Shown: piece after piece, positions 1,790 to 13,820 of the stretch
How positions within the stretch are numbered: position 1 is the stretch's first letter
How the letters are laid out: the number at the start of each line of letters is the position of its first letter
Assembly (NCBI GenBank): GCA_019894715.1
Contig: JAGXOA010000217.1
Location: forward strand, 1 to 35,594
Length of the DNA: 35,594 bases
Direction of reading: 5' to 3'
Origin: Promethearchaeota archaeon
GTDB taxonomy: Archaea > Asgardarchaeota > Lokiarchaeia > Sigyniarchaeales > SOKP01
Made by a program: the position numbers and the translations under genes
Notes under the pieces: generated by a model
What the model saw: the letters and a program-made list of their open reading frames with translations, nothing else
Told to the model about the DNA's origin: nothing
Databases searched by the model: none

Positions 1790-3216
1790 TTACTTATTAA
1801 AATTTTTTATATATGTAATTATTTTTTTTCGTTTTTCTAAAGCCTGCTCAGCTGCATGATTTATTTTTTCTTCCATTTTCTCGATGTGTACTGGAGTTTC
1901 TTCACCTATCTCCTGTTTAATCTTTGTATAGGCGGATTCTCTAAACTTTGGTAAGAATTCTTTTGAATCTTCCCCTTCAAATATAATAGATACTGTTTTA
2001 GAATCATCAACATAACCTATTTCATTGCATTTTATATTATTCTTCCTTAATAATTGCGTTATTCCTTTGGAATCATCTGGAGAGCAATAAATCAATAATG
2101 AATCTAATGATACTCCTAAATAATCAACCCCTAATCTTTCTAATAATTCTAATATAATTGGATTTACAAGATTTTTAACTTGTTTTTCGAAAATAGTCAC
2201 TCCGCAATCTGCTTCATAATTTATTTCATAAAGATCTCCCCGAAGACCTCCATTAGTAACATCACACATAGCATGAATTACATCTTTATAAGCTGAATTT
2301 AATAATAATTCACAAGCTTCTAAGAATTTAATATTCATAGTTTCCTTTACCACCTCATGATTTCCAGAATAAATTGCTGTTGTTGAAATTGTGCCTCCTC
2401 CAGCACCTTCAGTCATTAATATTTTATCTCCTTGTTTTATATTTCTCCTAGCAAATAAATTCCCTTTGGTAATTCCAATTCCTCCTATACCTCCTACTAA
2501 TCGAGTACCTATAACCATATCTCCTCCAATCCTTAAAGTTGATCCCGCTGTTAAAGGTACATTTGCTAATTCACATATAGTAGAGATTCCCGCCATAAAA
2601 TCAAAAAGTTTTCCAACATCTGCATCATCTCCCAAATGAACATCTACTAAAATTGAAATTGGTTTTGCTCCTTTAACATACAAATCTCTTAAAGTGGCTC
2701 TCGATACGTTTATGTAAGAAAATTACATTAAATTACGTGAAAACCACATAAAAAAGGAAAATCACTAAGTCTTGAGTGAATTCCCTCCATTTTTGAGACT
2801 ATTATTAGATTATTGGAAAAACTGTTCTCTTTTTCAAATCCTTTTATATCTTGTATTCGAACAGCTCCTGCATCATCCAAAGCACTTGGTGCAAGAAAAG
2901 GGATCTTTTCGATCTTAGATAACTTTCCCAATAATTTATGAACAAAAAAGTCCCCTGCTCCTCTACATCCAACTCCTTGCTTTCCTGAACTAACATTCGC
3001 CATAGGAATCTCTAATAATTCTTTGATAAAAAAATTAGAAAGCTGTGATATATCACTTTTTTTACATTCTTCATAAACCGCTTTCGCATAAGTATAAGCC
3101 AAAACTTTATCTATATCTTTAAAATCAAGATATTCTTGAACCAATCTTTCAATAATATCATCTTCAGAAAATCCTTTTTGAATCAATCTCCTTGTTAATC
3201 CTTCTAAATCACTCAA
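1790..3216 (-). CDS. AIR synthase-related protein (PurM/SelD-like fold), reading frame interrupted by a 29-nt insert
   Basis: ORFs 2728..3216 and 1790..2683 form one family protein; removing 29 nt (2705-2733) joins GFHV to SRATLRDLYVKGAKPISI in frame, which is the expected family sequence. Confidence 0.8.
2705..2738. repeat. Short insert with inverted-repeat core (TTATGTAA-gaaaa-TTACATTAA) flanked by TACGT/ACGTA direct repeats
   Basis: Plus strand TACGT TTATGTAAGAAAATTACATTAAAT TACGT inside the AIR-synthase-like gene. Confidence 0.8.
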
Positions 3217-5093: not shown

Positions 5094-6098
5094 TTGAAAA
5101 TTAGAATTACAACACCTTGCAGAATACATTTGTCTCTTATTGATGAAAATGGATATACTGGTCGAGTAGATGGTGGTATTGGTCTGATGCTTAATCAACC
5201 TAATGTAGTATTTGAAGCATCGAATTCCGCAAAAGAATTTAAAATTGAGGCTCATAAATATTATCGAGAATCTATTGAAATTATAAATGAAAAAGCTTCA
5301 AAAATATTCAAAAAATATAATATCAATAATAAAAACTTTCATTTTAACCTTATAAAATATTATCCTTCTCATGTTGGACTTGGTTCTAAAACACAATTAA
5401 GTCTTGCAATTGCTAATTCAATTGCGAAACTTAAAAATCTCGAAATTAATCATAGAGAATTAACTAAAATAGTAGAGAGAGGAGGAACTTCTGGAATTGG
5501 CTGGAAAGGATTCTTAACAGGTGGTTTCATTTTAGATGCTGGACATGAATTTGGTATTGGAAAAGAGAAAGAAAATTTTCTTCCTTCATCCGCTTCAAAA
5601 TCAGCAGATCCTGCTTTAACTCTTCTTAGATATGATATACCTGAAAATTGGCGTTTTGTTTTAACTATACCTAATATAAAAAAAGGAGCATATGGTGATG
5701 AGGAGGTGTCTATATTTAAAAAATATACTCCTATTCCAAAAGAAGAAGTAAATGAAGTATCTCACCAAATACTAATGAAAATTATTCCTGGCCTGCTTAA
5801 AAATGATTTAGATTGTTTTGGAGAGGGATTAAAAAGTATTCAATCAATTGGATTTAAGAAAATTGAAATTAAATTACAGAATAAAGTTGTGAAAGATCTT
5901 TTAAATTTTATAGATAATTATGGTGCAAAGGCATATGGTATGAGTTCCTTTGGGCCTAGTGTAGTTGGTATTGTTGATTCGGATTTTCAAGCAAAAAAAA
6001 TGCTTCAAGCAATTCAAGATCATCTTAAAGATATTGGTGGACATTTTTATATTTGCAAACCAAACAATATTGGAGCTAAATACGAAATTATTGAATAG
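5094..6098 (+). CDS. mptG: Beta-ribofuranosylaminobenzene 5'-phosphate synthase (RFAP synthase; GHMP superfamily; tetrahydromethanopterin biosynthesis)
   Basis: TPCRIHLSLIDENGYTGRVDGGIGLML...HVGLGSKTQLSLAIANSIAKL...GTSGIGWKGFLTGGFILDAGH; TTG start. Confidence 0.88.
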   Translation: MKIRITTPCRIHLSLIDENGYTGRVDGGIGLMLNQPNVVFEASNSAKEFKIEAHKYYRESIEIINEKASKIFKKYNINNKNFHFNLIKYYPSHVGLGSKTQLSLAIANSIAKLKNLEINHRELTKIVERGGTSGIGWKGFLTGGFILDAGHEFGIGKEKENFLPSSASKSADPALTLLRYDIPENWRFVLTIPNIKKGAYGDEEVSIFKKYTPIPKEEVNEVSHQILMKIIPGLLKNDLDCFGEGLKSIQSIGFKKIEIKLQNKVVKDLLNFIDNYGAKAYGMSSFGPSVVGIVDSDFQAKKMLQAIQDHLKDIGGHFYICKPNNIGAKYEIIE

Positions 6099-6106
6099 AT
6101 AGAAAA

Positions 6107-6505
6107 ATGATAGGAAAAAAAGCTAAAAAGTATTTTTCAAAGGATCTCAATATTAGAGAGAGAGCATGTTTTGAATCTGGAATAAAACTTGGCGCTCTTT
6201 ATCATATTTTATGTGGAATTCCCATATCATCAGATGAAAATACAGTTTCTTCAATTGAAAAAGGTATAGCTTCTGCAATATCTTGTCAGCCATATGTTAA
6301 AACTGTAAATATTTGCTTAGATAGGAATAAAATAATTAAAAATAAATCTAATGAATTTGATTATGATGAAATTACAGGAAAAATAATTCAAGCAGAGCTA
6401 ATTTTAAAATTCGAAACTGTAGAAATATTGGCAAAAATAGATTGGATTGAAGATTTGGATTATCCTCTAATGTATATTGAAAAGATTAGCGAGATAAACT
6501 CTTAG
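6107..6505 (+). CDS. mptD: MptD-like archaeal dihydroneopterin aldolase
   Basis: RERACFESGIKLGALYHILCGIPIS..TVSSIEKGIASAISCQPYV matches the MptD family; immediately follows RFAP synthase. Confidence 0.8.
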   Translation: MIGKKAKKYFSKDLNIRERACFESGIKLGALYHILCGIPISSDENTVSSIEKGIASAISCQPYVKTVNICLDRNKIIKNKSNEFDYDEITGKIIQAELILKFETVEILAKIDWIEDLDYPLMYIEKISEINS

Positions 6506-7244
6506 GTAATAAATCCCGAATATATAATTCAATCAGATTAAAAGTTTTTATTATAGTTATATTATCTGAAAATCTTGTTGTTCTTCTCTTATTTTCAATA
6601 ATTTCATTATGTATTTTTTTTATTAAATTAGTATTGTCCTTGTCATAAGCAATCTTAAGCCTTGTTGCTAATATTATTGATTCTAAAGCAATATTTTCTG
6701 AGCGATTAAAAAGTTTATATGATTCTCTAAATTTACTATAAGTTAGAATCTTAACCTTAACCTCTGATAGAGTTGATTCTCCTAAATCATCTTTTTTATT
6801 TTCAAGGATTTCTGTATCTAATCTACAAATAAAGATTAACCATGATTGATTTACATAAGGTAAATTATTAATTATTGATTTAAAAGTAGTCTGAAAATTC
6901 TCTCGTACTATTTTATTTTTAGACAAGTCTATATAATCATAATATTTAATTGGAAATGTTCCAATTTGATTTGATGATCTTGGTTCCTTTAAAGATGCTA
7001 ACGCAAATAAATAAACATTGTTGATGAAATTGATACATAAATAACCATTTTTTTTCAAATTTTGATAAGTGTTTGTATTTATATATGGTCTAATTGTAAA
7101 GGTATTTTCTCTCGATAATCTTATTCCCATACTTGATGTGTTTAGAATCATCCTATCATGGGTATCCTCATAATAAAATGTTGTTATTAATGTTTCGTAC
7201 AGATAATCATATTCAATACCAAAATCTTTGGGATTAATTTTCAT
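6486..7244 (-). CDS. DUF447-family protein (flavin-reductase-like fold), associated with methanopterin gene clusters
   Basis: YETLITTFYYEDTHDRMILNTSSMGIRLSRENTFTIRPYINTNTYQNLKKNGYLCINFINNVYLFALASL matches the DUF447 pattern; genomic context agrees. Confidence 0.7.
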   Translation of the reverse strand: MKINPKDFGIEYDYLYETLITTFYYEDTHDRMILNTSSMGIRLSRENTFTIRPYINTNTYQNLKKNGYLCINFINNVYLFALASLKEPRSSNQIGTFPIKYYDYIDLSKNKIVRENFQTTFKSIINNLPYVNQSWLIFICRLDTEILENKKDDLGESTLSEVKVKILTYSKFRESYKLFNRSENIALESIILATRLKIAYDKDNTNLIKKIHNEIIENKRRTTRFSDNITIIKTFNLIELYIRDLLPKSLSR

Positions 7245-7492
7245 TTGAACATTTACATCTCGAATTTGATTTTAACTAATTATTAACTATTCTTCTATTA
7301 TTATTGTATTGATTTCAGGTTATCAATTTTATTAAAAACCGTTGATATTATTTAATGATTTTAATAAAAATTTATAATAAATATCAATATTTTTATTTTT
7401 TTTTTTGATGATATTTATCATTGATATACTTTAAAAATTTAAATTATAATAATTTTAGACAAAATAATAAGATAAAAAAATAAAAATTAAAA

Positions 7493-8596
7493 ATGACACC
7501 CATTACTTTTGGAATAGATCCTGGATCAATGAGTTGGGATTTTATAGCATTAGATGATGATAAGATCATATTAGATACCTCTATATCTACAAAAAAGATA
7601 TTAGAAGATCCAGATAGGGTAATCACAATTATAGATTCATTAAATAATAAAAAAAAGATTGATCTAATGGTTGCCCCTAGCGGGTTTGGGCTTCCATTAA
7701 AAAATATAAATGATCTAACTGAGAAGGATATTTTTCTTACTTTATTAAAATTTAATACCCAAGATAAAGAAAAGTTAGTGGGACTTGGAGAAATATTAAA
7801 AATAATTAAAAATAAAAACATTCCTGGAGTTATTGTTCCAAGTGTTAAACATCTTCCAACTGTTCCAAGATTTAGAAAAATAAATAAAATTGATATGGGA
7901 ACAGCAGATAAACTATGTACAGCAGTAATAGGGATAAAAGATCAGACAGAAAAATTTCAAATTCCTCCTGAAGAATCTAAATTTATCATGGTTGAGATTG
8001 GATATGCATTTTCAGCAGTTTTGGCTATTGAAAATGGACAAATTATTGATGGAATTGGGGGGTCAAATATCATGGGTTTTAGAGCATGTGGAAGTTTAGA
8101 TGGAGAATTAGCTTATTTAATTGGAGATATAAAGAAAAACAATATCTATAAGGGTGGTGTTGCATATATCTCGGGGGATTCAAATCTAAGTTTAAAAGAA
8201 ATAATGATTTTGGCAGAAAAAGATGATCATATTAATTGTGCTTTTAAATCATACATATCAAGTGTAGAAAAAGCAGTATTTGGAATTTCCTCCTCTTTTA
8301 CAAATAGAAATAATATCAAAGAAATTTTATTAGCTGGAAGGGGTGCTGAAAATAATTATTTGAGAAAAAATATAATTGATTCTCTCAACACTATAGCACC
8401 AGTGAGACTAATGAAATCTTATACTCAAATAGCTAAAAGGGCAGCTCAAGGAGCTGCTTTTATTGCGAATGGGCTATTGGAAGGTAAATCTAAATCAATT
8501 GTTGATAATTTAAAGATTAAAGAATCTTCTGGGTCTATATTAGATGATATATATGTTCCCTTTAATAAAGAAAGATTTAACAGTGATGTAAATTAG
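7493..8596 (+). CDS. DUF1464 family (ASKHA / butyrate-kinase-like) protein
   Basis: TFGIDPGSMSWDFIALDD...LPTVPRFRKINKIDMGTADKLCTAVIGI...GIGGSNIMGFRACGSLDGELAYLIG. Confidence 0.75.
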   Translation: MTPITFGIDPGSMSWDFIALDDDKIILDTSISTKKILEDPDRVITIIDSLNNKKKIDLMVAPSGFGLPLKNINDLTEKDIFLTLLKFNTQDKEKLVGLGEILKIIKNKNIPGVIVPSVKHLPTVPRFRKINKIDMGTADKLCTAVIGIKDQTEKFQIPPEESKFIMVEIGYAFSAVLAIENGQIIDGIGGSNIMGFRACGSLDGELAYLIGDIKKNNIYKGGVAYISGDSNLSLKEIMILAEKDDHINCAFKSYISSVEKAVFGISSSFTNRNNIKEILLAGRGAENNYLRKNIIDSLNTIAPVRLMKSYTQIAKRAAQGAAFIANGLLEGKSKSIVDNLKIKESSGSILDDIYVPFNKERFNSDVN

Positions 8597-10166
8597 AATT
8601 CTTATCTTAACAGGTCAACAAAGTTATGGGATATTAAAAGATATAACTAAATCAATTAAAAACCATCAAGTTACAATAACACTTATTCCAATATCTATTT
8701 CTGCTTTTATAACAGAAAATATGATAGAAGAGAAGCTAAAAGAATTAGATCTTTCTAAATATGAATTAATTTTGCTTCCAGGATTTATTCAGTGGGATTC
8801 TACAAATTTAGAAAAAAGAATCTCTCTGCCTATTAAGAAAGGAACTGAATTTGCATCAGATCTTCCCTTACTTTTAAAAAATTTGAAAGAAATTAAACTC
8901 TCAAATAAAATTCCTGCTAATAGAATTGTAGAATTAGCTGGAGAAAAAGATTATCATAGAATTATAAAAGAAAAATTTGAAAAAATTAAGAATAATCTTG
9001 GAAAGGTATCTTTTTATATAAATGAATCAAAGAGTGAGATTATGATTAGTAAAGAACTCCCACCTCCAATAATAGCTGAAATTGTAAATTGCACAAATAA
9101 AACTGATATTTCAATAATTAAAAAGGTTGAGCATTATATCAATTCTGGAGCTGATATAATCGATATAGGATGTATTGCTAGTTCTCCAAATCCAGAAAGA
9201 GTAAAAGATATTATTAATTTAATTAGAAAACAGTTTGATGTTTTATTAAGTATTGACTCAATGAATACAGAGGAAATTCAAATTGCGGTAAAATCAAATA
9301 TTGATATGATTCTTAGCATGGATATTAGCAATTATAAAGATTTTATAGATATTCCTAAAGATATTCCTATCGTCATTTTACCAACTAATATTAAAAAAGG
9401 ACACTTTCCCAAAACCCCTATAGAACGAGTAAGAAACCTATTTACATTAACTAATAAAATGAAAGAATTAGGATTTACCAAATTAATCGCTGATCCATTG
9501 TTAGAGACCCCAATATCTCCAGGAATTTTAAATTCTTTACAAGCATATTACTTATACAGAAATGAAGTGAATAAAGACAAGAATAAAAGATTAGAATTAC
9601 CATTGTTTTTTGGAATATCCAATGTTGTAGAACTTATGGATATAGATTCAGTTGGTATAAATGGACTATTATCAAGCATAGCTCTTGAGTTAGATATAGG
9701 GATTTTATTTACAACGGAACATAGTAAGAAATTAATTGGTGGTGTTAGAGAATTGAAACAATGTGTAAAACTGAATTATCTATCCAAAAATAGAAAATCA
9801 CCTCCAATAAATCAAGGTATTCAAATTTTTAAAGCAAAAGGTAAGCTTTATCAAAATACACCTCCATTATATCTAGAAAATTCAATAATAATAAATGAAA
9901 TAAATCTAAATTATATTCCTGATGAAAAAGGGTATTTTAAGATTTATATCAACCATTATGACAATAAAATATATGTTCTATTCTTTTCTAACAACAATAA
10001 GATTCTTAAAGTAATTGTTAGTTCTGATTCAGAATCTATTTGTAAAAAGATTATTGATTTAAGATTAACGAATGATCTCTCACATGTAAGTTATCTTGGA
10101 AGAGAGATTAAAAAGGCAGAATTATATCTTAAATTTGGTAAACCTTACATACAAGATAAATCATAA
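8592..10166 (+). CDS. Dihydropteroate synthase-like protein (archaeal H4MPT-associated family)
   Basis: DHPS-like motifs (IIAEIVNCTN...GADIIDIGCIASSPNPERV...VLLSIDSMN...LIADPLLETPISPG). In-frame sequence upstream of the called ATG (8721) encodes IRILILTGQQSYGILKDI..., the expected N-terminal strand, with no ATG/GTG/TTG/CTG available downstream of the in-frame TAA. Confidence 0.8.
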   Translation: MRILILTGQQSYGILKDITKSIKNHQVTITLIPISISAFITENMIEEKLKELDLSKYELILLPGFIQWDSTNLEKRISLPIKKGTEFASDLPLLLKNLKEIKLSNKIPANRIVELAGEKDYHRIIKEKFEKIKNNLGKVSFYINESKSEIMISKELPPPIIAEIVNCTNKTDISIIKKVEHYINSGADIIDIGCIASSPNPERVKDIINLIRKQFDVLLSIDSMNTEEIQIAVKSNIDMILSMDISNYKDFIDIPKDIPIVILPTNIKKGHFPKTPIERVRNLFTLTNKMKELGFTKLIADPLLETPISPGILNSLQAYYLYRNEVNKDKNKRLELPLFFGISNVVELMDIDSVGINGLLSSIALELDIGILFTTEHSKKLIGGVRELKQCVKLNYLSKNRKSPPINQGIQIFKAKGKLYQNTPPLYLENSIIINEINLNYIPDEKGYFKIYINHYDNKIYVLFFSNNNKILKVIVSSDSESICKKIIDLRLTNDLSHVSYLGREIKKAELYLKFGKPYIQDKS

Positions 10167-10188
10167 AGAAATATTATTTATCATAATT

Positions 10189-10230
10189 GCTCAAGAAGAC
10201 CCCTCCCTTTAGGGAGGGGATGAATTGAGC
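10189..10230. repeat. 42-nt hairpin element, copy A
   Basis: GCTCAAGAAGACCCCTCCCTTTAGGGAGGGGATGAATTGAGC. Confidence 0.9.
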
Positions 10231-10299
10231 ATGGTAAAAAAATAGGTAAACCGCCACACCCTCCCCCTTTTTCTCTATTCATATTCTCTTATTATAGTA

Positions 10300-10377
10300 A
10301 TGAAGCTCACGCAAAAGATCAGGATAAATCCTTCGAAGGAACAAGAACACCTATTCGGGATATTATCTGAGAAATAA
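10300..10377 (+). pseudogene. tnpB: TnpB N-terminal remnant
   Basis: ATG... reads MKLTQKIRINPSKEQEHLFGILSEK*, a typical TnpB N-terminus, then stop. Confidence 0.7.
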
Positions 10378-10399
10378 ATTAAATTAAAAAAATTCCATT

Positions 10400-10669
10400 C
10401 TAATTTAATCTTAGATTTTTCAACTTTTCAGCAATACTCAATATATGAGTTCCTTTCCAATAGATTTGTCCACAATTTTCATTAGGACAAATCCAAAAAT
10501 CTTTTTGATATTAGATTATAAACCATATCCAACAATATTGAAGATAATTTCTATCATTTCTATTGAAGAATTGTTTAAAATAATCCTTTATATCACTCAG
10601 TTCCTTATAGAATTTTCTTTGACGACTTAACAGGGATCGAAACTGTACATTCTCTTCTGACAAGAGATA
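10400..10669 (-). pseudogene. Zinc-ribbon protein fragment resembling the C-terminus of Mut7-C RNAse-family proteins, with an in-frame TAA
   Basis: Minus-strand frame: ...EENVQFRSLLSRQRKFYKELSDIKDYFKQFFNRNDRNYLQYCWIWFII*YQKDFWICPNENCGQIYWKGTHILSIAEKLKNLRLN*; TAA at 10511-10513. Confidence 0.55.
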
Positions 10670-10867
10670 TCATTCCGTTAGATCATAAGTCTATTTCATT
10701 GCTATTTCATGAAGCTTATAATTAGAGAATATATCTTTATATTTAAAGCTTTTCCTCTTCTGGGGAAGACTATGGGCATGGATCAGAATAACGGGAAACT
10801 AATGGGTAATTATCCCCAGAATGATGATCTTTTATATGATTTAAAGTGCTTTTTCTTGTAATTATTT

Positions 10868-11998
10868 TTAATAAAATTCTTTAATGTTATAAAGAGTATC
10901 TCGTCTAGCTGGACGCTTACCTGCGGATTTAATTATTTCTATTATTTGATTTTGATGTAAATACTCTCCATATATTGTTCCTGCACTTTTTGAAATATTT
11001 TCTTCCATTAATGTTCCTGAAAAATCATTTACACCATAATTTAAAGAAATTTGAGCTAATTTTTGTCCTAATTTAACCCATGAACACTGAATATTATCAA
11101 TATAATTATTTAAAAAGAGTCTTGCAACACATAGTAATTTAATATCATCCATTCCATGACAATGATTTGGAAGATATCCATTAAGCTTTGTTAAAATCGT
11201 ATTTTTTCCTATAAAAGGTAAAGGAATAAATTCAGTGATACCCCAAGTCCTTTTTTGGATATTTCTTATAATATCCAAATGTTCAATTCGATCTCTTAAT
11301 TTTTCGACATGACCATACATCATTGTTGATGTTGTGGGAATATCTAAATTATGAGCAATTGTTATTATTTCAATCCATTTTAATGTATTAATTTTATTTG
11401 GACATATGATTTGTCTAATATTATCATTTAAAATTTCGGCTGCTGTTCCAGGTATTGAATCTAATCCTGCTCTCTTTAACATTTTTAAAGTATTTTCAAT
11501 AGAATCCTCACATAAATCGGATAAATGATATATTTCTTGGGGTGAAAATGCATGGATATGTAAATTTGAATTAATATCTTTAACTGCCCTAAGAATATCT
11601 ATATAATATTCTATACTCAGATCGGGATTAATTCCTCCTTGAATACACACCTCAGAACATTCAGTATTATTTAATTCAATAATTTTATTCCTTATTTCCT
11701 CAATACTAAGTGTAAAACTATCCTTGTGAGTATTACTATGACTAAAACAACAAAATTTACATTTCTTATAGCAAATGTTTGTAAAATTGATATTCCTATT
11801 TATAATAAAAGTGACAATATCTTTTTTTTTTTCAAAACATATTTGGTTAGCAACATTTTGCAGAGCAATAAAATTTCTTCCTGTGACTTTTAATAGTTTT
11901 AATCCTTCTTCTACAGTAAGTTCTTCTGAATCTAATGCATGTTTTAAAATTCTACGTATTTCAGGAATTGTATTATCCAAATATTGTTCTATTATCAT
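10868..11998 (-). CDS. cofH: CofH, Fo synthase subunit 2 (radical SAM)
   Basis: NFTNICYKKCKFCCFSHS radical SAM motif; EVCIQGGINPDLSIEYYIDILRAVKD; IHAFSPQEIYH; ARRDTLYN C-terminus. Confidence 0.9.
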   Translation of the reverse strand: MIIEQYLDNTIPEIRRILKHALDSEELTVEEGLKLLKVTGRNFIALQNVANQICFEKKKDIVTFIINRNINFTNICYKKCKFCCFSHSNTHKDSFTLSIEEIRNKIIELNNTECSEVCIQGGINPDLSIEYYIDILRAVKDINSNLHIHAFSPQEIYHLSDLCEDSIENTLKMLKRAGLDSIPGTAAEILNDNIRQIICPNKINTLKWIEIITIAHNLDIPTTSTMMYGHVEKLRDRIEHLDIIRNIQKRTWGITEFIPLPFIGKNTILTKLNGYLPNHCHGMDDIKLLCVARLFLNNYIDNIQCSWVKLGQKLAQISLNYGVNDFSGTLMEENISKSAGTIYGEYLHQNQIIEIIKSAGKRPARRDTLYNIKEFY

Positions 11999-12039
11999 TG
12001 GAATATATAATATTATTGTTCTAAAAACATTTTAGTTTG

Positions 12040-13155
12040 TCAAATCTCCTTGATTTGGGTGTATTTATGGATTATATTCCTAACTCTTTTTGAGAGAAAA
12101 GAAGAATTATTTTTGAATTTATCATATACAGCAAGTCGCTCTTTAAGATTATATCCGTTCATCTTACAAATTTTCTTTAAATTCTCAATTTGAGGCCATT
12201 TTTTTTTAGGATTTATATGATCAATTGTAATTGGTGAAATTCCTCCAAAATCATTTATACCCATCTCTATAAAATCCTTTTCAAAACCCGATATGAGATT
12301 TGGTGGAACTTGAATTGAAATTTCATTGTTAAACATTATTCGGGCAATCCCCGTTATTTTTAATAATTCCTCAATTGGAACTTTCCTTTTTGGTTGATAA
12401 TTAATTCCCTCTTTTTTTTCGAAATTTTGTATTATAATCTCTTGTATATGACCATATTTTTCATGGATGTTTTTTATAAGCAAAAGATCTTTGATCCTGT
12501 CCTTTAGAGATTCCCCAATTCCTATGAGTAAGCCAGTCGTAAAAGGTATCTTTAATTTACCTGCATTTATCAGATGTTTTATTCTCTTATTTGGTAATTT
12601 ACTAGGGGAATTTTCATGAACTCCTCCTTTTTCATAAAGTCTAGGGCTAGTACTTTCTAACATTAAACCCATACTTGCTGTATATTCTTTTAATATTTTA
12701 AAATCATCGATTTTCACTAATCCAATATTTATATGTGGTAGAATTTTCTTATTAAGAAGAAAATCACAGACTTTTTTAACATAAAAAATATAATTCCGAA
12801 TTTTTAATCTTTCTAATTTGACTTTAACCTCTGGAAAACTACCAGGATCTTCACCTGATATCAATAAACCCTCTTTACAATCATATTTTAAGGCATTTTC
12901 TACTAATATACTAATTTTATCATTCTCTAATAAAATCGTATTTTTGTTACCTGTTTCTGAAAATATCTTATGATTGTAAAAGCAGTATTTACATTGATTT
13001 ATACAATAATTTGATAAAGATAAAGTAAAATTTTTTGAATATGTGATAATTTTTCCTTTTTCTTTGGGAATATCTTCTATAATTCTTTTTATTCTTTCTT
13101 TAATTTGTGGTAATGATATAGTACTGAGATTATTGATAATAGATTTTTCATTCAT
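12040..13155 (-). CDS. cofG: CofG, Fo synthase subunit 1 (radical SAM)
   Basis: SNYCINQCKYCFYNH motif; EGLLISGEDP; GLMLESTSPRLYEKGGVHENSPSKLPNKRI; overlaps the upstream gene by ATGA. Confidence 0.9.
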   Translation of the reverse strand: MNEKSIINNLSTISLPQIKERIKRIIEDIPKEKGKIITYSKNFTLSLSNYCINQCKYCFYNHKIFSETGNKNTILLENDKISILVENALKYDCKEGLLISGEDPGSFPEVKVKLERLKIRNYIFYVKKVCDFLLNKKILPHINIGLVKIDDFKILKEYTASMGLMLESTSPRLYEKGGVHENSPSKLPNKRIKHLINAGKLKIPFTTGLLIGIGESLKDRIKDLLLIKNIHEKYGHIQEIIIQNFEKKEGINYQPKRKVPIEELLKITGIARIMFNNEISIQVPPNLISGFEKDFIEMGINDFGGISPITIDHINPKKKWPQIENLKKICKMNGYNLKERLAVYDKFKNNSSFLSKRVRNIIHKYTQIKEI

Positions 13156-13820
13156 TCCCTTTTCCTTTTATAATTAAGAACAACATAATTGTCTCGATTA
13201 TTTACATTGATCAGATTAAATCTTTTCCCCTCAATCATTTTATCAAATCCCTTACCTTCAACTAAACTGGTAGCATCTTTTCCGCCAATTATCCATGGAG
13301 CTATAGTTAAGCGGATTTCATCAATCAAATCATTTTTTATGAAACTCCAGTTTAATGTACCTCCACCCTCTAAAATAATTGAATTAATTCCTTTTTTTTT
13401 TAAAATAGGCATTAATTTTAATAGATCAACTTGTTTATCATGCCCAGACTTAATAATTGATATATTTCTTTTTTTAAATTCTTTTATTCTAACTTCTGTT
13501 GCATTTTCGGTTGTGCAAATAATTGTTGGATATATTTCTGGTTTATAATTAATTACCTGTGAATCTATGGGGATCGATAAATTACTATCTAAGATAATTC
13601 TTGTATATCCATTATGATTATAATATTTAATATGTAATTTCGGATCATCTTGAATTATTGTACCTTTTCCAACCATAATAGCATCAACATCTGTCCTCAA
13701 TTTATGGACGTGTTTCCAATCTATTAAGTCTGATAATTCTGGGTCTCCTTTTTTAGAAGCAATTTTTCCATCAATAGTCATAGCAGCGCTAAGAATAATA
13801 TAAGGCTTTTCAAATTTCAT
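13152..13820 (-). CDS. arfC: 2,5-diamino-6-(ribosylamino)-4(3H)-pyrimidinone 5'-phosphate reductase (RibD C-terminal family)
   Basis: PYIILSAAMTIDGKIASKKGDPELSDLIDWKHVHKLRTDVDAIMVGKGTIIQDDPKL...ILEGGGTLNWSFI. Confidence 0.88.
   Translation of the reverse strand: MKFEKPYIILSAAMTIDGKIASKKGDPELSDLIDWKHVHKLRTDVDAIMVGKGTIIQDDPKLHIKYYNHNGYTRIILDSNLSIPIDSQVINYKPEIYPTIICTTENATEVRIKEFKKRNISIIKSGHDKQVDLLKLMPILKKKGINSIILEGGGTLNWSFIKNDLIDEIRLTIAPWIIGGKDATSLVEGKGFDKMIEGKRFNLINVNNRDNYVVLNYKRKRE

Follow-up and report, generated by a model that had tools for sequence, protein, structure and literature searches.

A probable 29-nt bulge-helix-bulge intron in the pre-mRNA of a Lokiarchaeota AIR-synthase-related gene

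How can a gene be split by a short, stop-containing insert while both of its halves look sound? The question is raised by the window analysed here, 35,594 nt (positions 1 to 35,594 of contig JAGXOA010000217.1) from a 3.36-Mb MAG that its named relatives place in Candidatus Lokiarchaeota, in which two minus-strand ORFs, 2728-3216(-) and 1790-2683(-), are the two halves of a single AIR-synthase-related protein. Around the insert, the coding strand reads GGT TTT CAC GTA ATTTAATGTAATTTTCTTACATAAACGTA TCG AGA GCC. An earlier note made from the sequence alone had described the direct repeats ACGTA...ACGTA, the hairpin ATGTAA-TTTTC-TTACAT and an in-frame TAA after GTA ATT, a layout that our reading of the insert confirms in every element. 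As that note had also proposed, removal of 29 nt restores the frame: the halves join as a protein of 465 aa, to which intact Lokiarchaeota homologues can be aligned over the whole length (66-74% identity) with no gap at the place of the insert, and neither half has any other stop or frameshift. Three origins had been offered for the insert, namely a micro-MITE or excision footprint, removal at the RNA level and ribosome bypassing. The second of these stands and the other two are disfavoured: the insert is very probably a spliced pre-mRNA intron of the archaeal bulge-helix-bulge (BHB) type, and we infer that its cleavage and ligation take place in the cell. We prefer this reading to a MITE footprint or bypassing because of the Thr at the predicted junction, the covarying base pairs and the exon complementarity that accompanies the intron.

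Folded as RNA together with its exon flanks, the insert forms a canonical BHB, the structure on which the archaeal tRNA-splicing endonuclease acts. The 77-nt fold, (((((((((((((...(((.(((((.....))))))))))))...))))))))), has an energy of -17.5 kcal/mol (z -4.6), which was reached by none of 200 shuffled sequences, and consists of a 9-bp exon helix, a 3-nt bulge, a 4-bp helix, a 3-nt bulge on the opposite strand and the intron helix. This corrects the earlier impression that bulges lie on one side only and that the structure is not a textbook BHB. In the order of the transcript, and all on the minus strand, the fold begins with the 5′ arm of the outer (exon) helix, GUGGUUUUC, at 2739-2747, and continues with the 5′ arm of the central 4-bp helix, ACGU (2735-2738), the 5′ bulge AAU (2732-2734), the intron helix with its loop (2710-2731), the 3′ arm of the central helix, again ACGU (2706-2709), the 3′ bulge AUC (2703-2705) and the 3′ arm of the outer helix, GAGAGCCAC (2694-2702). 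Besides the fold, both arms of the outer helix are supported by exon complementarity and those of the central helix by covariation, and the intron helix covaries between genera. If each bulge is cut between its second and third nucleotide, as is expected of cbf5 introns (PMC2738675), the 29-nt intron would occupy 2704-2732(-), an assignment that draws on the fold, on the same site in nine genomes and on the Thr register described below. It would separate exon 1 (2733-3216(-), with a TTG start at 3216 according to the ORF list and the homologue alignment) from exon 2, which runs to the stop codon (1790-2703(-)) and carries PF00586 and PF02769, the AIRS N- and C-terminal domains.

The BHB is the optimal fold in most intron-bearing relatives too; the intron of L057 (genome G007) has a slightly relaxed fold, in which the BHB lies 0.1 kcal/mol above the optimum. 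By itself, the motif is common in AT-rich DNA, with four occurrences in the window versus 0-4 in shuffled sequence, and it was dropped as stand-alone evidence. Because a lone BHB motif is not rare, the case for an intron rests on place, frame and conservation. A comparison of the window with Rfam gave no match at gathering score.

Using a covariance model built from eight inserts and run on 228 Promethearchaeota genomes, we find inserts of 29 or 30 nt with an internal stop codon at the identical site in nine genomes, which represent five genera (g1, g2, g6, g7 and g8) of one family; both halves of the gene are open in all nine, in line with the earlier view that they are otherwise intact. No other gene rose above noise in this search of the 228 genomes, in which L124 and L125 were weak matches. 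The congener Zod_Metabat.578 (JAFGOA010000234.1) carries an identical 29-nt insert, whereas seven further genomes, from genera g2, g6, g7 and g8, have 30-nt inserts at the same codon boundary. The earlier note had looked to relatives that might read the segment as ordinary coding sequence; the 30-nt inserts are indeed in frame, but all of them hold an in-frame stop. In the set of 63 distinct genes gathered before the covariance search, the insert is present in 8 and absent in 55. All genomes compared are MAGs, whose bins may be mixed (CSMAG_2743 contains several AIRS loci). The insert recurs in independent assemblies, including that of the congener, and is therefore no assembly error. The identity with the congener extends over a run of 73 nt across the intron and its flanks (window 2686-2762 against L032) in two species whose fourfold-degenerate sites agree at only 56%, for which constraint and re-transfer are both conceivable reasons.

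The BHB structure is maintained by compensatory change. Five pairs have changed on both sides, giving nine such cells versus 3.2 in shuffles (0/500), and in the alignment of intron structures 94% of the cells are paired, compared with 32-51% in slid controls. The flanking exon ends are complementary at 10.5 of 11 nt in intron-bearing genes but at only 5.3 of 11 nt in intronless ones (p 5e-6). The splice-site register can be judged from the protein. Because of the direct repeat, the boundaries of the insert are ambiguous and several registers are possible, yet the frame is restored with a Thr junction in all nine carriers only when the cut follows the second bulge nucleotide. With registers at the repeat, the junction residue would be Ser in six of these carriers and Ala in one, whereas among 55 intronless homologues 48 have Thr, 7 have Ala and none has Ser. 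The junction GFHV-S-RA of the earlier note accordingly gives way to GFHV-T-RA, as produced by the BHB cut, and the predicted spliced sequence joins CACGTAA to CGAGAGCC in the window and to CGAGRGCY in relatives. Judged from these sequences, the junction residue separates splicing from ribosome bypassing as well as from excision at the repeat.

In programmed ribosome bypassing, as in T4 gene 60, matching codons lie around a hairpin and a stop codon stands in the gap. Applied to the AIRS gene, ribosomes would take off at GTA, skip the hairpin and land at the second GTA, and the layout is similar to the T4 element insofar as every insert has direct GTA repeats, a hairpin and a stop codon. However, in only two genes does the stop come right after the take-off codon, elsewhere it lies deeper in the gap, and bypassing would generate precisely those Ser junctions that are absent from the homologues. 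It would also leave the complementarity of the exons without a role, and altogether we consider it very improbable. If a mini-transposon, MITE or excision footprint had recently inactivated the gene, this would account for the 5-bp direct repeats and the internal inverted repeat. Yet a genome-wide search for copies, as the earlier note had suggested, found the insert pattern ATTTAATGTAATTTTCTTACATAA just once in the 3.36-Mb genome with three mismatches allowed, and the insert is single-copy in each carrier genome. Moreover, inserts in five genera share one site and keep their pairing while their inner sequences differ, and no further stop or frameshift has appeared although the exons of the congeners differ at 44% of fourfold sites, so that this explanation, already contradicted by the data, is scarcely credible. 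Hardly more tenable is a dead gene whose halves are now separate ORFs. Annotation would indeed give two ORFs, the second of which could start at TTG 2683, but the halves are open in every carrier and, read as one, match intact homologues from end to end, and the break is bounded by a BHB every time.

For the spliced intron that we favour, the following course of events can be proposed. The transcript would fold such that the exon ends pair together, as do the last bases of exon 1 and the intron's 3′ end; EndA would then cut after the second nucleotide in each bulge, and RtcB would ligate the exons. From the spliced mRNA, the AIR-synthase-related protein of 465 aa would be made without interruption and with Thr where the exons meet, while translation of an mRNA left unspliced would stop at the TAA two codons past GTA. 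Genes for both a splicing endonuclease and an RNA ligase are present in the genome. The catalytic EndA subunit, with 3p1z and 3ajv (chain B) as best PDB matches, keeps the Tyr, His and Lys positions; in a second EndA-family subunit, the Tyr and His of the aligned enzyme are replaced by Phe and Ser, respectively. RtcB is encoded as well (1.8e-167). Long tRNA matches of 97-104 nt are intron-bearing according to ARAGORN. In the window itself, a tRNA-like RF00005 match of 35 bits at 10622-10692(-) emerged from the genome search and is absent from the results of ARAGORN and of cmscan at gathering score.

The distribution of the intron raises the question of its history. On the whole-protein tree, it needs at least six gains or losses, a number that is largely explained because the gene, when split at the intron, gives two different histories. 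Exon 1 of six genes (L041, L072, L075, L091, L014 and L116) forms one clade (100/99), whereas exon 2 of the same six is placed with different intronless relatives, and forcing the six together on the exon-2 tree costs 521 log-likelihood units (AU p 1.4e-56). For example, L041 and the intronless L043 show an identity of 0.80-0.97 in exon 2 versus 0.49-0.78 in exon 1. In five of the six genes, donor-like sequence gives way to resident sequence 0-14 codons after the intron, and in the remaining one 108 codons after it, with windows for L075 and L091 that allow anything between 0 and ~40 codons. Taken together, the single exon-1 clade and the scattered placement of exon 2 suggest that the intron spread horizontally with its upstream exon, the two having probably moved as a unit between Lokiarchaeota genera by recombination in six of the nine genes. 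L057, like the window gene and its congener, lies outside the six-gene exon-1 clade; a single intron clade on exon 1 is not rejected (p 0.137). Chimeric contigs could mimic part of this mosaic pattern, yet several assemblies made independently share the exon-1 type. Homing introns spread horizontally and take their flanks along, as seen for these six genes, but with its 29-30 nt the AIRS intron contains no endonuclease.

In several carriers, comparison with intronless relatives shows foreign DNA immediately upstream of the leader and exon 1 that they share, amounting to ~2 kb in G014, ~1.3 kb in G031 (where the resident exon 1 survives as a short 5′ piece), ~2.4 kb in G032 and ~4.9 kb in G162. 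G025 retains the resident leader, so its exon 1 was apparently replaced by recombination alone. In G014, the foreign DNA includes a 581-aa ORF and is preceded by the displaced, intronless and stop-containing resident exon 1; at this locus (L171, G014:C61, 12798-15747), the displaced exon 1, the ORF with its Cys-rich repeats and the new exon 1 with the intron stand in a row, an arrangement that looks like an insertion at the splice site. The ORF, whose C-terminal part is acidic and conserved, has relatives in 12 of the 228 genomes and adjoins the intron gene in G014 only. It had no match in Pfam, PHROG or PADLOC and none of significance in the PDB, and a structure prediction for its C-terminal part was discarded at a pLDDT of 37. 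From its position, one may conjecture that it is a homing nuclease. The ~4.9-kb insertion in G162 (L175, G162:C55, 1785-6680) comprises a 397-aa ORF with the motif IHFHV, a 403-aa ORF, a 233-aa ORF and a FeoB fragment; a rolling-circle Rep function considered for the 397-aa ORF on account of its motif was supported by no library searched. A speculative and rather unlikely extension would make the intron the seam of a site-specific gene-swapping cassette, in which a mobile element or homing nuclease targets GFHV-T-RA and brings in a new leader and exon 1, the foreign seam is spliced out and the host gene survives; the DNA found before the shared leader in other carriers differs from that in G014.

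Further introns of this kind were sought in ~640 kb (about a fifth) of the genome and in additional Lokiarchaeota loci, where only the AIRS intron recurred. Other candidates for BHB-interrupted genes matched control rates, and the two that were inspected proved to be gene boundaries. Virus contigs searched for exon 1 or the intron pattern yielded nothing useful. Elsewhere in the window, positions 5094-13820 hold a gene cluster resembling methanopterin and F420 biosynthesis, with a beta-RFAP synthase (5094-6098), a dihydropteroate-synthase-like protein (8721-10166; both NCBIfam) and two radical-SAM-like ORFs (10868-13155) that, by eye only, resemble CofG/CofH.

According to a study from 2020, cbf5 contained the only BHB intron then reported in archaeal mRNA besides that study's own 5′ UTR case (PMC7714728), and abundant tRNA introns were described in Asgard archaea in 2024 (PMC11291895). 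Our literature search, which left preprints and most subscription journals outside its scope, found no report of an mRNA BHB intron in Asgard archaea. Introns in archaeal protein genes are almost unknown, and the AIRS case would be the second interrupted coding sequence. If true, it would show that protein genes of the archaea nearest to eukaryotes make use of tRNA-type splicing, with evidence of spread between genera. There is also a practical warning: in Asgard MAGs, a gene of this kind will be cut in two by gene callers.

One of the known systems closest to the AIRS intron is the cbf5 pre-mRNA intron of Crenarchaeota, reportedly described by Watanabe in 2002. Crenarchaeal cbf5 is where BHB introns have been described in archaeal mRNA (Yokobori 2009, PMC2738675); there, as here, a BHB lies in coding sequence with a cut expected between the second and third bulge nucleotides, the host has an EndA of the two-subunit type and the intron is patchy along the host tree (PMC2738675). 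However, the present intron resides in an AIRS-related gene of another phylum, and cbf5 is uninterrupted in the Lokiarchaeota tested. Its BHB is of the canonical 3-4-3 form, whereas cbf5 introns are mostly unconventional, and their history has been read as vertical with losses (PMC2738675), while exon 1 and the intron appear to have moved horizontally here. Short BHB introns in 16S rRNA genes spread through co-conversion, together with an endonuclease gene next to them (PMC4496867). The hairpin introns of Thermoproteales 16S rRNA (<50 nt) share size class, BHB processing and spread with flanking DNA with the AIRS intron, but they are located in rRNA, some of them beside homing-endonuclease introns (PMC4496867), whereas the AIRS intron is in mRNA and a nuclease for it is conjectural. 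Action of EndA on mRNA is also a feature of the HVO_1309 intron of Haloferax volcanii; that intron, though, lies in the 5′ UTR (PMC7714728) and does not interrupt a coding frame as the AIRS intron does. Finally, BHB, EndA and RtcB are common to archaeal tRNA introns, which are present in the same genome, and what sets the AIRS intron apart from them is its host, a protein-coding gene.
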